The position numbers were made by a program, and so were the translations under genes. Of a stretch of 31,289 nt of DNA, positions 5,412-26,385 are shown one piece after another. Source of the DNA: a virus; the IMG/VR virus record IMGVR_UViG_3300005827_000004, positions 1 to 31,289 of that record; one strand, written 5' to 3'. The notes beneath the pieces are model-generated. The model ran no database searches. It saw nothing but the letters and a program-made list of their open reading frames with translations, and had not been told where the DNA came from. Numbering within the stretch: position 1 is the first letter of the stretch; every line of letters begins with the position of its first letter.

Positions 5412-5921
5412 TTAACGAACCATATAAATCACCGTAGCAGTAGTTAAAGTACTTTTTACTCTTCTAACTAATAGTGGTATAATTTCCTTCTTATCTAATG
5501 GAATTACTAGGGTTTGCCCTGATGCTGTTACTAATTCAACATTTCCAGCATCTCCAAGAACCATGATAAAACCAAAACCTTGAGGTATATCATTTAAATC
5601 ATTAGGTTCTACGAGATAAGCCTCCCTAAGCCTTAAGCTATCAATAATATGAAGTGGTGAAATATTATCTGAAATGTATAGAATAGCTGAGATATTATCA
5701 TCTGCAGACATATTATCATGCTCAATGGAAAAGTTTAATAATAAATCATCACCAGAATATGTAATATCACCAATACTTTTTGAGTTATAAATAACTAAAT
5801 TGTGAGTAACATTAGTAATAGAACGTATAGTAGCGTTATATTTACGAACGCCTTTTATTTTTACCGTTTTTAAAACAGGATCGAATTCAACGGCAAACAA
5901 ATCTTTAGCTTCTATTATCAT
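5412..5921 (-). CDS. Hypothetical phage protein, spike-base-like (169 aa)
   Basis: A beta-rich protein with no membrane segment. Its second half (FGFIMVLGDAGNVELVTASG ... IPLLVRRVKSTLTTATVIY) has the cadence of small phage virion proteins in which a Gly-rich beta segment is followed by 'P-LLVRRV...TTAT', as in spike-base or head-decoration-type proteins. This is a resemblance, not a firm family call. The frame is open further up to an ATG at 5969, but that codon lies inside a stem-loop (5944-5971), so I prefer the ATG at 5921, which begins MIIEAKDLFAVEFD. The stop is 10 bases from the start of the BspA-like gene, suggesting co-expression with it. Confidence 0.65.
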   Translation of the reverse strand: MIIEAKDLFAVEFDPVLKTVKIKGVRKYNATIRSITNVTHNLVIYNSKSIGDITYSGDDLLLNFSIEHDNMSADDNISAILYISDNISPLHIIDSLRLREAYLVEPNDLNDIPQGFGFIMVLGDAGNVELVTASGQTLVIPLDKKEIIPLLVRRVKSTLTTATVIYMVR

Positions 5922-5943
5922 ACTCAAAGTTTTATTTGAATTA

Positions 5944-5971
5944 AAATGGTTTCTATTATTAGAAACCATTT
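5944..5971 (-). terminator. Stem-loop between virion genes, possible terminator
   Basis: On the minus strand AAATGGTTTCT and AGAAACCATTT form an 11-bp perfect stem with a 6-base loop, followed by TTAATT. It comes 7 bases after the stop of the 74-aa gene. The T run is weak, so it may be an attenuator or processing site, not a full terminator. Confidence 0.55.
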
Positions 5972-11740: not shown

Positions 11741-12550
11741 TTATAATGGTAATGATACTTTCGATAACATTTGATTACTAACATGAGTATAAATTTCTGT
11801 TGTTTTACTAGATGCGTGACCTGCTATTTTTTGAATTATTCTTAAATCAGTTCCTGATTCCAATAATGATGTAAAACATGAATGTCTTAAAAGATGAAAA
11901 TGATATGATTCGCCAATATGTTGTTTAACAATATTATTACAACTTTTGGATGAGTATTTTAATTCAAACTGTCCATTAAATAAGTATTCCTTCGGCTTAT
12001 AAATTATAAAATATTCTCTTAAAAGTGTAAGCATATTTTCAGATAATGGAACAATTCTATCCTTTCTTCCTTTTGCTTGTCGAATATTAATTATCATTCT
12101 TTTTGAATCAATATCTTCAATTTTAAGATTTATTACCTCACTCACGCGTAAACCAACAGAAAAAGCAAGCGATAAAATAGCCTTATGCTTTATATTTTTA
12201 ATGGCATTAATCTTAGTTATCAAATAATCCTTTTCGATTATTTGAGGTAGATGTTTTTCTTTTCTAGGCCTTTCGATTTTATTAAGGTGTATTTCGCTTT
12301 TATTAAGAATATATTTATAAAACGCTTTTAGTGCATTAATTAATTGATTCTGTTGGCTTATAGATGTATATTTAAAACTAAATAAATAATCAGTTAAATC
12401 CTGAATAGTTAACTGATATGTTTCTTTTTTATATGAGTTATAATATTTTAAAACATAAAATGAATACATTTCAATAGTTCTTGGAGAATAATTTTTAACT
12501 CTTAAAATATTTTTGAATTTTTCAAGAGTTGATTCTTCGAAAGTATTCAT
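11741..12550 (-). CDS. Short Xer/IntI-like tyrosine recombinase beside the cassette array
   Basis: A 269-aa tyrosine recombinase. N-terminal SAM-like core-binding domain, residues 1-95; catalytic domain, 100-269. Active-site residues visible: R135 (SVGLRVSEV), K160 or K163 (QAKGRKDRIV), H219 and R222 (HLLRHS), H245 (AGHASSKTT), Y254 (EIYTHV). It ends with IYTHVSNQMLSKVSLPL, a tail like that of XerA/XerD and IntI proteins. The extra helical insertion between patches II and III that defines integron integrases is absent and the protein is shorter than IntI (about 320 aa). Its start is 37 bases from the orphan core site at 12588, divergent from the cassette array, exactly where an integron integrase would sit. 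It is a second recombinase in this phage, separate from the phage integrase. Role inferred: cassette excision or insertion; a Xer-like dimer-resolution role is the alternative. Confidence 0.88.
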   Translation of the reverse strand: MNTFEESTLEKFKNILRVKNYSPRTIEMYSFYVLKYYNSYKKETYQLTIQDLTDYLFSFKYTSISQQNQLINALKAFYKYILNKSEIHLNKIERPRKEKHLPQIIEKDYLITKINAIKNIKHKAILSLAFSVGLRVSEVINLKIEDIDSKRMIINIRQAKGRKDRIVPLSENMLTLLREYFIIYKPKEYLFNGQFELKYSSKSCNNIVKQHIGESYHFHLLRHSCFTSLLESGTDLRIIQKIAGHASSKTTEIYTHVSNQMLSKVSLPL

Positions 12551-12595
12551 ATTGGTAGGTTTTAATGTGTTATTTTATATATAATAGTTAGCGGT
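12551..12595 (+). other. attI-like site with orphan core GTTAGCGG
   Basis: A 45-base gap between the recombinase start and the first cassette. The core GTTAGCGG is at 12588-12595, reading on the plus strand away from the recombinase. It matches the 7-base GTTRRRY-type core of integron sites only loosely, but it is complementary to CCGCTAAC at 12913-12920, the inverse core of the first attC-like element. No other attC-like arm follows it on the recombinase side, so it fits an attI (insertion) site better than a truncated attC. Confidence 0.5.
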
Positions 12596-12597
12596 AA

Positions 12598-12876
12598 TTA
12601 AAGAACCGCCTGCAACTTTCGATATGCTTTTGAAAACTTGCTTTCTTTTCTGAAAAATGGCTTTTTAGAATCATACCAGCTTATTGTTAGGTTCTCATCC
12701 CAATATAATTTGAAATTATCACTACCATAAGCTGTATTATTTTTTGATTCAAATCTCATAAAAGCATTGCCTTTACTTGTTTTTATTGGTATTGCATAAA
12801 CACCATCAGGAACATTTTCTCCCATTCCGAATTTAGTTCCTAAAAATCTTTTTACTTCATTAAATTCTCGTAACAT
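12598..12876 (-). CDS. Cassette gene 1, hypothetical (92 aa)
   Basis: A small basic protein of unknown family. It is beta-rich (GVYAIPIKTSKGNAFMRFES, NLTISWYDSKKPFFRKES), with about equal aromatic and lysine content; no signal peptide or membrane segment. The start MLREFNEVKRFLGTKFGMGE is preceded by an A/T-rich leader. The gene is the only content of cassette 1 (12589-13038), lying between the attI-like core and the first attC-like element. It points with the phage transcript (minus strand), against the polarity inferred for the array. Function cannot be assigned; small unknown proteins are typical of integron cassettes. Confidence 0.7.
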   Translation of the reverse strand: MLREFNEVKRFLGTKFGMGENVPDGVYAIPIKTSKGNAFMRFESKNNTAYGSDNFKLYWDENLTISWYDSKKPFFRKESKFSKAYRKLQAVL

Positions 12877-12912
12877 ACATTTATATTTTATTGATTAATA
12901 AACAATTAACTA

Positions 12913-13045
12913 CCGCTAACAAGCGGTCATAAAACAAAGCGGTTTAATCGGTTCGGCAAGCTTATCACTCGCTTATGGTTAGGTGTCGGTTGATAATTTC
13001 TCAACCCGTTCACCGCTTCGTTTCATACCGCCATACCGTTAGCCG
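12913..13045. repeat. attC-like imperfect palindrome 1 (about 133 bp)
   Basis: The outer arms are CCGCTAAC (12913-12920) and GTTAGCCG (13038-13045). Inside, GCGGTCATAAAACAAAGCGG pairs with the complement of CCGCTTCGTTTCATACCGC, with one extra base on the left arm, as in the extrahelical bases of attC sites. The central spacer is variable. The size, inverse core, arms and core are those of an integron attC. It separates the 92-aa gene from the HAD-type gene. Confidence 0.75.
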
Positions 13046-13050
13046 TCAGT

Positions 13051-13476
13051 TTAAGACAGCACCCCGATAGCTTTGAGCATTTCTTCAACTTTATCCCAAT
13101 CGACAAATGGACGGTCTGAAATTTCGGGATCATAAAGTAATGGGCAGCCAAGAGCAGCATCATCAATATATAATTGACCGTATGCTTTGGGGCTTTTAGT
13201 CCAAGTGTGCTGTGTTGGATTTACATTTATTCCGTGTAATGGAATATGATTGTCAATAAACCAATTAACAGCATCTGTTAAATAATCACCAGCTTGTTTG
13301 TGTATTCCATAATCATTGCTTGTTACTTCTTCAGTATCACTTCTCATTGTAAAAAGAATGATATTATGCCCAGCATCGGCAATTTTGTTTAAAACAGGTA
13401 TAGCTCCAATGTCTTTACCTACTTTTGGAAATTCGTGAGTTACACAAGTTCCGTCAAAATCTATACATATTTCCAT
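13051..13476 (-). CDS. Cassette gene 2, HAD-like hydrolase
   Basis: A 141-aa HAD-superfamily protein of the short type without a cap domain. Motif I is IDFDGTCV, with nucleophile D6 and general acid D8. Motif II is LFTMRS, and the motif IV region is YIDDAALG near residue 104. This set supports phosphatase chemistry on a small phosphorylated substrate, but the substrate is not visible. Similar small hydrolases are widespread in Bacteroidota and their phages. The gene is the sole occupant of cassette 2 (13039-13638), flanked by GTTAGCCG and CGGCTAAC, and its stop is 5 bases from the first attC-like element. It is oriented with the phage transcript. Confidence 0.8.
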   Translation of the reverse strand: MEICIDFDGTCVTHEFPKVGKDIGAIPVLNKIADAGHNIILFTMRSDTEEVTSNDYGIHKQAGDYLTDAVNWFIDNHIPLHGINVNPTQHTWTKSPKAYGQLYIDDAALGCPLLYDPEISDRPFVDWDKVEEMLKAIGVLS

Positions 13477-13515
13477 ATTTTGATATTTAATTAATTACTA
13501 AAAATAAAAACCGAA

Positions 13516-13647
13516 CGGCTAACACCGCATAAAACCAATAAAGGTTGTATAGGTAATTTCAGTATTATAGCCCGTTCAAACTGTTGTGTATCTTGATAGT
13601 TCATCTCTCGCATTCCTTTACTGGTCTTATGCCCACCGTTATAGCCG
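13516..13647. repeat. attC-like imperfect palindrome 2 (about 132 bp)
   Basis: The outer arms are CGGCTAAC (13516-13523) and CCGTTATAGCCG (13636-13647). Inside, GCATAAAACCAATAAAGG pairs with the complement of CCTTTACTGGTCTTATGC, with three mismatches. It shares the inner CATAAAAC with palindrome 1 at the same place, so the two are members of one family although their spacers differ. It ends cassette 2. No further core was found to its right, so it is probably the last site of the array. Confidence 0.7.
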
Positions 13648-25218: not shown

Positions 25219-26385
25219 ATGTCAGCAATAACGGCTTATATCTCAGAAAATTACAAAAAGAAAAACGGTACAACGCCTATTATTCTTCGATTTTATATAA
25301 ATAGGCAAAAAATTAAAATTTCTACTGGGATTAGTATTGAAAAAAGTAAATGGGATGCAGAAAACCAACAAATTAAAGGAGTAGGGAAGGAAGCAAAGGA
25401 TAATAATCTTATCATAAAAAACCTGATAAGTAGAATTAACAACATTTTTGTAACCTACCGCCTAGGCGAAAGAAGGATAACAAAAGAGATTTTCCTGAGA
25501 GAATTCAATAGCAACTCCAAGTTTTCTGACATTTGGGCTTTTGTAGATTCTGAGATTGAAAAACGTAAGGGTTTAATATCTAAAAATACATATAAGGCTC
25601 ATAAATCTACCATTAAGAAGTTTATACAAATACTACCAAACCTTCAGTTCCACGAATTCAATGAGGAGACTATTAGGGATATAAAAAAACTGCTCAAATC
25701 AAAGTTTAACAATAATCAGAATACCATTGCAAAGAATCTGATTACGCTAAAAACGTACGTTTCAATTGCCATTCGAAAGAAGTATATTGATGAAGATCCG
25801 TTTCGAATCGAAAAGATTAAGCGCTCAAAGTCTAATCAGGTTTGGCTAACCGATAAGGAGTTGAATAAACTTGTTGAATTTTATCGCCAAGAGAATTTAC
25901 CAAGTAACTTGAATAGGGTATTGCAATACTTTTTATTTTCATGCTTTACTGGATTTAGATTGTCGGATGTTAAAGAATTTAGAATGGAGCAGGTTAAAGG
26001 TGATTTCATCCTTATAAATCCAATAAAAACAAAGCGGGTTAATAACGAGATGGTAACTATACCATTGACTAAGCCTATAAAAAAACTACTGAAGGAGGTT
26101 GCACCGCATAGGGTAGAAGGGAGGGTATTTGACTGCTTTGCCGACCAAGTAACCAACAGAATGCTTAAAAAGATTTCCGAATTAGCCGGTATTAATAAGG
26201 ATATTAGCTTTCACTCTGCCAGGCATACATTTGCCACTTATTTTCTTGAAAAAACTGATGACCTAGCAACCCTCCAAAAGCTGCTAGGCCATAGCGATAT
26301 TAAGCAAACGATGATTTACGTGCACCTTACTGAAGGAAAAAAGGTTGCTCAAATGCATAAATCCTGGAATGAATTTAACTTTTAA
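25219..26385 (+). CDS. int: Phage integrase (tyrosine recombinase)
   Basis: A 388-aa site-specific recombinase of the Bacteroidota phage/transposon type. Residues 1-90 are the arm-binding domain (ISENYKKKNGTTPIILRFYI ... KISTGISIEKSKWD), 100-190 the SAM-like core-binding domain, and 205-388 the catalytic domain. Active-site residues: R247 (FTGFRLSDV), K270 or K272, H332 and R335 (FHSARHTFAT), H358 (LGHSD), Y367 (MIYVHL). The protein is full length. It is on the plus strand, next to the candidate attP and behind the repressor, and converges with the tail genes. It would insert the phage at the tRNA 3' end described above. Confidence 0.95.
   Translation: MSAITAYISENYKKKNGTTPIILRFYINRQKIKISTGISIEKSKWDAENQQIKGVGKEAKDNNLIIKNLISRINNIFVTYRLGERRITKEIFLREFNSNSKFSDIWAFVDSEIEKRKGLISKNTYKAHKSTIKKFIQILPNLQFHEFNEETIRDIKKLLKSKFNNNQNTIAKNLITLKTYVSIAIRKKYIDEDPFRIEKIKRSKSNQVWLTDKELNKLVEFYRQENLPSNLNRVLQYFLFSCFTGFRLSDVKEFRMEQVKGDFILINPIKTKRVNNEMVTIPLTKPIKKLLKEVAPHRVEGRVFDCFADQVTNRMLKKISELAGINKDISFHSARHTFATYFLEKTDDLATLQKLLGHSDIKQTMIYVHLTEGKKVAQMHKSWNEFNF

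Follow-up and report, generated by a model that had tools for sequence, protein, structure and literature searches.

The results indicate that the window (the whole 31,289-nucleotide stretch analysed, a 31-kb virus record that, according to family searches, also encodes a head protease and a replicative helicase) very probably contains a phage-borne, integron-like cassette platform, in which, judging from the sequence, a recombinase that we call VInt would recombine an attI-like site with attC-like hairpins. The original prediction had described an integron-like array of two one-gene cassettes within a phage genome; it was silent on the adjoining recombinase, on the attI-like site at 12,575-12,598 and on the location of both cassette genes on the minus strand. 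The locus comprises the following features:

11,741-12,550, minus strand: cassette recombinase (VInt), 269 aa, Xer-like tyrosine recombinase, no IntI insert
12,575-12,598, minus strand: attI-like site, AT-TACCGC-TAAC-TATTATATATAA, 37 nt before the VInt start codon
12,588-13,038, minus strand: cassette unit 1 (gene 1 and hairpin site 1), predicted cut at TAA-C / G-TTA
12,598-12,876, minus strand: cassette 1 gene, 92 aa, stop codon just before the core
12,913-13,045, minus strand: attC-like hairpin 1, TAAC at 12,917-12,920 and GTTA at 13,038-13,041
13,039-13,638, minus strand: cassette unit 2 (gene 2 and hairpin site 2), core GTTAGCCG matching CGGCTAAC at the opposite end
13,051-13,476, minus strand: cassette 2 gene, 141 aa, HAD-type phosphatase, BT0820-like below the family cut-off
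13,516-13,647, minus strand: attC-like hairpin 2, TAAC at 13,520-13,523 and GTTA at 13,638-13,641, 122 nt from TAAC to GTTA

The minus strand encodes both cassette proteins, so that one reading direction is common to gene 2, gene 1 and the VInt gene. VInt matches PF00589 at 8e-35, has NF040815 (183 bits) as its best NCBIfam model, and carries six residues (R135, K160, H219, R222, H245 and Y254) that are invariant across 33 relatives. A gap of 37 nt separates its start codon from the first core of the array, and one copy of the recombinase is present in each viral record tested. A stray array was considered and rejected, inasmuch as the locus has its own recombinase and attI. Separately from the cassette recombinase, the window encodes, at 25,219-26,385, a second, ordinary phage integrase of prophage type with an arm-binding domain, which presumably serves prophage integration.

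The two palindromes of about 132 bp that had been predicted to delimit one-gene cassettes are present at 12,913-13,045 and 13,516-13,647, far beyond chance expectation, and are the only TAAC...GTTA palindromes in the 31-kb window with paired inner arms and a score of at least 11. Hairpin 1 spans 125 nt from TAAC to GTTA (133 nt with core flanks) and has a long stem and spacers of 6 vs. 2 nt. Hairpin 2 contains two G.T wobbles on the gene strand, has an outer core, TATAAC, without T at −7, and is probably the distal end of the array. The start core of each cassette is the exact complement of the inverse core of its own hairpin, as claimed, with the correction that the first core, GTTAGCGG, starts at 12,587 rather than 12,588; the unit 1 core matches the left half of attI at 6/6 positions. 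The anticipated contents, a small protein without family match and a HAD hydrolase, are borne out: the 92-aa cassette 1 protein has no match in Pfam, NCBIfam or PHROGs, and the cassette 2 protein matches NF046079 (2.7e-14) and phrog_1238 (5.8e-34). An Rfam search gave no match. The proposed single-strand folding gave a weak result on the plus strand (z-scores of −1.95 and −1.01), but at both sites the minus (coding) strand formed the more stable hairpin (−21.2 vs. −16.3 kcal/mol for site 1; −11.2 vs. −7.4 kcal/mol for site 2). Single-site plus-strand z-scores being weak, the decision rested on family-wide covariation and on the gene strand.

A pattern search for VInt relatives gathered 77 viral sequences. 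Approximately 65 relatives in IMG/VR (48-71% identity) have the same layout, with one recombinase, an attI motif 5' of it, and arrays, containing different genes. The attI motif, YTAAC-TATTATATATA, lies directly 5' of the recombinase in these ~65 viral relatives, practically all of those with sequence there; the motif to the right of TAAC is conserved, and the bases to the left of TAAC vary. The motif was judged from the bases 5' of each start codon, printed without selection; the attI logo was built on a TATAT-containing pattern, and for the TATAT part the unselected view alone counts. In two sets of related loci (L016, L017 and L019; L026 and L027), the 5' end of the recombinase gene and the 80 nt to the right of TAAC are 100% identical, and to the left of TAAC identity falls to about 30%, the chance level.

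With two scanners that required the stem to adjoin the core directly, few palindromic sites or none were recovered; sites emerged once an unpaired spacer was allowed. With a TAAC/GTTA palindrome scan allowing such a spacer, arrays reach 14 sites, mostly 5' of the recombinase. For 30 related loci, 54 sites score at least 14 with the true core, as compared to 0-1 with mock 4-mers and 7 with the mock core CATA, which overlaps stems. A search elsewhere for the exact arm CATAAAAC found almost nothing, because the arms covary and their letters are not conserved; arms of this type, for which the original prediction proposed a search, are present beside other genes in dozens of phages and thus not only in this one. 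Read in gene direction, a site opens with A-T-n6-TAAC, followed by a GGTTG-like unpaired spacer of five bases and by the first arm of a stem of at least 18 pairs; beyond a variable tip come the second arm of the stem, an unpaired spacer of 1-2 nt, and GTTA-n6-G-T. Across 197 hairpins, the left spacer is mostly 5 nt, the right spacer is 1-2 nt, and spans range from 48 to 190 nt. The stems covary, with 15.6 of 18 pairs observed vs. 8.4 when the arms are re-dealt; in the main hairpin class, 92% of sites have a G.T wobble at one and the same stem position, and the T/G pair beside n6 is nearly fixed. Owing to this fixed wobble and this near-fixed pair, the coding strand forms the better hairpin, as observed for 91% of 90 sites. 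The combination of stems that vary yet pair, a fixed wobble and an asymmetric spacer points to a folded strand. A 48-nt hairpin class (TAACGTCCGATGATAAA...TTTATCATTTGTTA) occurs almost unchanged, with different genes, in five loci (L037, L040, L041, L008 and L074).

More distant recombinases in cellular genomes (L083-L159) are mostly without attI and arrays. Among genomes sampled from the phylum, 2 of 395 encode the present recombinase, as compared to 57 of 198 with a true IntI, which indicates that the system is mainly a phage system. Several palindromes of greater length, which have GTAAC/GTTAC or CATAAC/GTTATG as cores and differ in their inner arms, lie on an Aquimarina contig (L108, 7,441-9,079) and may represent a chromosomal array of related type.

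The relatives define the mobile unit. The six-base cores at the two ends of a cassette match at five or more positions for 76% of 192 cassettes, and the last cassette matches attI to the same extent for 77% of 51; the corresponding value is 4.5% within one palindrome (n = 246) and 4.5% at random. The self-matching expected of cassettes that move as circles thus holds across the family. Recurrent units break exactly at TAAC on both sides (L005, where 2,560-2,953 and 5,562-5,955 are 100% identical; L008/L074; L023/L040/L037), and cassettes shared across arrays, or present twice in one array, include the palindrome 5' of the gene. We rejected a cassette consisting of a gene and its 3' palindrome, since recurrent blocks hold the 5' palindrome and break at TAAC. 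The core matches, the exchange to the left of attI, and the recurrent TAAC-to-TAAC units together fix the mobile unit and place exchange at or next to TAA-C; the cassette boundaries originally proposed, 12,588-13,038 and 13,038-13,641, coincide with the unit seen empirically in relatives, cut at TAAC. The unit body has a median of 285 nt, all but two of the 145 cassette open reading frames with 60 aa or more (143) are oriented towards the recombinase gene, and the cassette stop codon is often within about 15 nt of TAAC. Few of 143 cassette proteins have family matches; these include DNA methyltransferases (3-5), an RNA ligase, an exonuclease, an HNH endonuclease and a HAD phosphatase.

Gain and loss of units can be read directly from phage isolates. 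A phage collection searched for the window's recombinase contained no close relative, and no near relative of the window's phage with a different array was found, searches with two other genes leading to one site-less contig or to none. The recombinases of the Polaribacter phages Freya and the Cellulophaga phage Ingeline fall in the VInt clade and are 37-39% identical to that of the window. The Freya isolates come from a single host strain and one year's sampling (PMC8776804). Over 38 kb there is practically no difference among Freya_1-10, and yet whole gene blocks distinguish them: six isolates show 0-4 mismatches relative to Freya_10 in the 38 kb from the integrase start, and the distance that separates the integrase from a fixed gene varies between 63 and 5,005 nt. 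In Freya_1, 2, 5 and 9, a block end, ..AAC, joins ACCCCTATAAC before the integrase (junction AAC-ACCCC, attI); in Freya_8, one internal block is missing, from AAC to AAC; and Freya_6 equals Freya_5 with a new 469-nt unit exactly at attI, in which the scanner recognised no hairpin. In the Danklef phages, Danklef_5 carries a 781-nt DNA-methylase cassette from which Danklef_2, 3 and 4 are free, with clean excision after CTAAC. The integrase of Danklef_1-5 (L208-L212), at the array end, matches that of Freya over residues 96-271 only; it is annotated as a 132-nt remnant and looks truncated, yet the array varies, and recombination may have come in trans or may predate the damage to the integrase. 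The source paper for these phages gives their size range, and the words cassette and deletion are absent from its text (PMC8776804).

According to the mechanism that we propose, VInt would cut at TAA-C in the resident attI-like site 5' of its own gene and in the equivalent hairpin core; in principle, the cutting enzyme could also be the XerCD of the host or a different recombinase. The mobile unit would be one hairpin and one short gene, with end cores that are complementary in the circle form; units would enter at attI and would exit by attI x attC or attC x attC recombination. The substrate at the hairpin would probably be one folded strand, with the coding strand as the likeliest candidate. 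Since the genes point to the recombinase and the hairpin is 5' of the gene, a promoter inside the recombinase gene cannot drive the cassettes, which would therefore be expressed from promoters of their own or from upstream phage promoters. The phage would benefit from small accessory and anti-restriction genes, for example through escape from restriction.

Integrons are the textbook gene-capture platform, and bacterial integrons spread antibiotic resistance. The platform in the window follows the same plan, that is, a recombinase, attI, palindromic attC sites (R box, spacer, stem), and circles with self-matching cores. Like class 1 and chromosomal integrons, it has a tyrosine recombinase by a primary site, one-gene cassettes, core bases common to both cassette ends, an imperfect palindrome (R box, unpaired spacer, L stem, variable tip) with an asymmetric spacer between the R-type and L-type stems, insertion and cassette exchange at the primary site beside the integrase, and excision between sites. 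IntI4 is among the nearest solved structures to VInt, and integrons in phages are known (PMC9892861), so that a phage carrying a true IntI-type integron, of which a few cases have been reported, has to be considered. We regard this reading as highly improbable. IntI has an additional I2 domain (Messier and Roy 2001; PMC7790495) and its capacity to recombine hairpins is attributed to a single acquired helix (PMC7790495); the I2 region measures 43 aa in the window's VInt, 40-45 aa in VInt rows and 47 aa in Freya, with Freya and Ingeline counted on the VInt side, vs. 90 aa in IntI (12 controls). A structure model of VInt has no extra helix at the I2 region, and the IntI4 structure aligns with VInt in two pieces only. 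The integron-integrase model TIGR02249 gives 142.7 bits, in two split stretches, vs. a cut-off of 265, and VInt forms its own clade in the tree (support 99/97), separate from the IntI clade (100/100). The sites likewise differ. The attC R box, 5'-GTTRRRY-3', is present in 6% of right and 9% of left cores (197 sites), the phage core being GTTA, six cassette-specific bases and a fixed T/G pair; 163 of 197 stems (83%) have no bulge, with a fixed G.T wobble in place of extrahelical bases; and the phage attI is A/T-rich. Whereas integron genes read away from attI, from the promoter Pc, the phage cassette genes are reversed. We conclude that the phage platform works like an integron and, by membership tests, is not one: of the term integron-like, the mobile cassettes, attC-like hairpins and self-matching cores stand, and integron membership does not.

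The p-dif modules of plasmids are moved by host XerC/XerD. By analogy, host XerC/XerD might move the phage modules, with the phage recombinase merely adjacent, and XerA, XerC and XerD provide the closest solved structures (the archaeal XerA enzymes nearest of all) and the best family model for the Xer-like VInt. However, those enzymes carry out housekeeping dif recombination and have no cassette arrays, and about 5 further residues before HxLRH are missing from VInt as compared to Xer. The recombinase and attI occur together in practically every relative with sequence there, in a single copy per viral record tested; the sites are palindromes of 48-190 nt in direct order, not short inverted dif sites; and one half of attI is exchanged while the recombinase side stays identical. 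Movement by host XerC/XerD is thus very unlikely. A further reading accepts the platform as real and holds that the sites are used double-stranded, the palindromes being spacers, terminators or leader hairpins. It gains from the fact that VInt lacks the I2 helix, the known hairpin holder of IntI (PMC7790495), from the possibility that transcription ends at attC sites, and from the unit gained by Freya_6, which is without a clear hairpin. We nevertheless judge it unlikely, given that stem pairing is kept despite sequence change, the wobble is fixed, the asymmetric spacer sits beside the core, and one strand folds better at 91% of sites. We accordingly retain a phage-borne cassette platform with probable use of folded hairpins as the preferred reading.

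The platform also differs from cassette systems already described. Phage integrons and CALINs (Qi et al. 2023, PMC9892861) likewise place cassettes in phages, including flavophage DNA methyltransferase genes; they have canonical integron parts, and IntI1 recognised 5 of 6 tested sites (PMC9892861), whereas VInt, its attI and its hairpins form a phage family of their own. Polaribacter phage P12002L, from that study, has none of the present type of site, and its attC sites belong to another family. Beside its Mom-like and DNA methyltransferase genes, P12002L (L160) carries a repeated motif, GGGTAACACCGTATATA / AGGTAACAATGTATATA, at 38,035 and 38,879, which may be another cassette-type boundary family. 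Treponema integrons (PMC3607928) resemble the phage platform in having cassette genes and recombinase in one direction, but their intI is transcribed towards attI with the array past the intI 3' end, whereas the phage array lies 5' of the recombinase with genes running towards it. Loci from the phylum of Sunxiuqinia (L167-L181) show mixed integron geometry, with palindromes 3' of intI in some and 5' in others. The phage literature describes canonical integron parts (PMC9892861); within the open-access papers searched, nothing was found on the VInt family, its attI, or the Freya and Danklef cassette exchange.

On balance, we lean towards a second, independent origin of the integron principle, in an Xer-like family of Bacteroidota phages that would use folded single-stranded sites without the I2 helix and would draw on a phage-wide pool of one-gene cassettes, for example DNA methylases. 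With the same scheme found in another recombinase clade that lacks the helix, the requirements of cassette recombination become directly testable, and Freya and Danklef, with cultured hosts and isolates already differing by single cassettes, are a ready system. This platform may be the source of much of the rapidly exchanged small-gene content in Bacteroidota phages.
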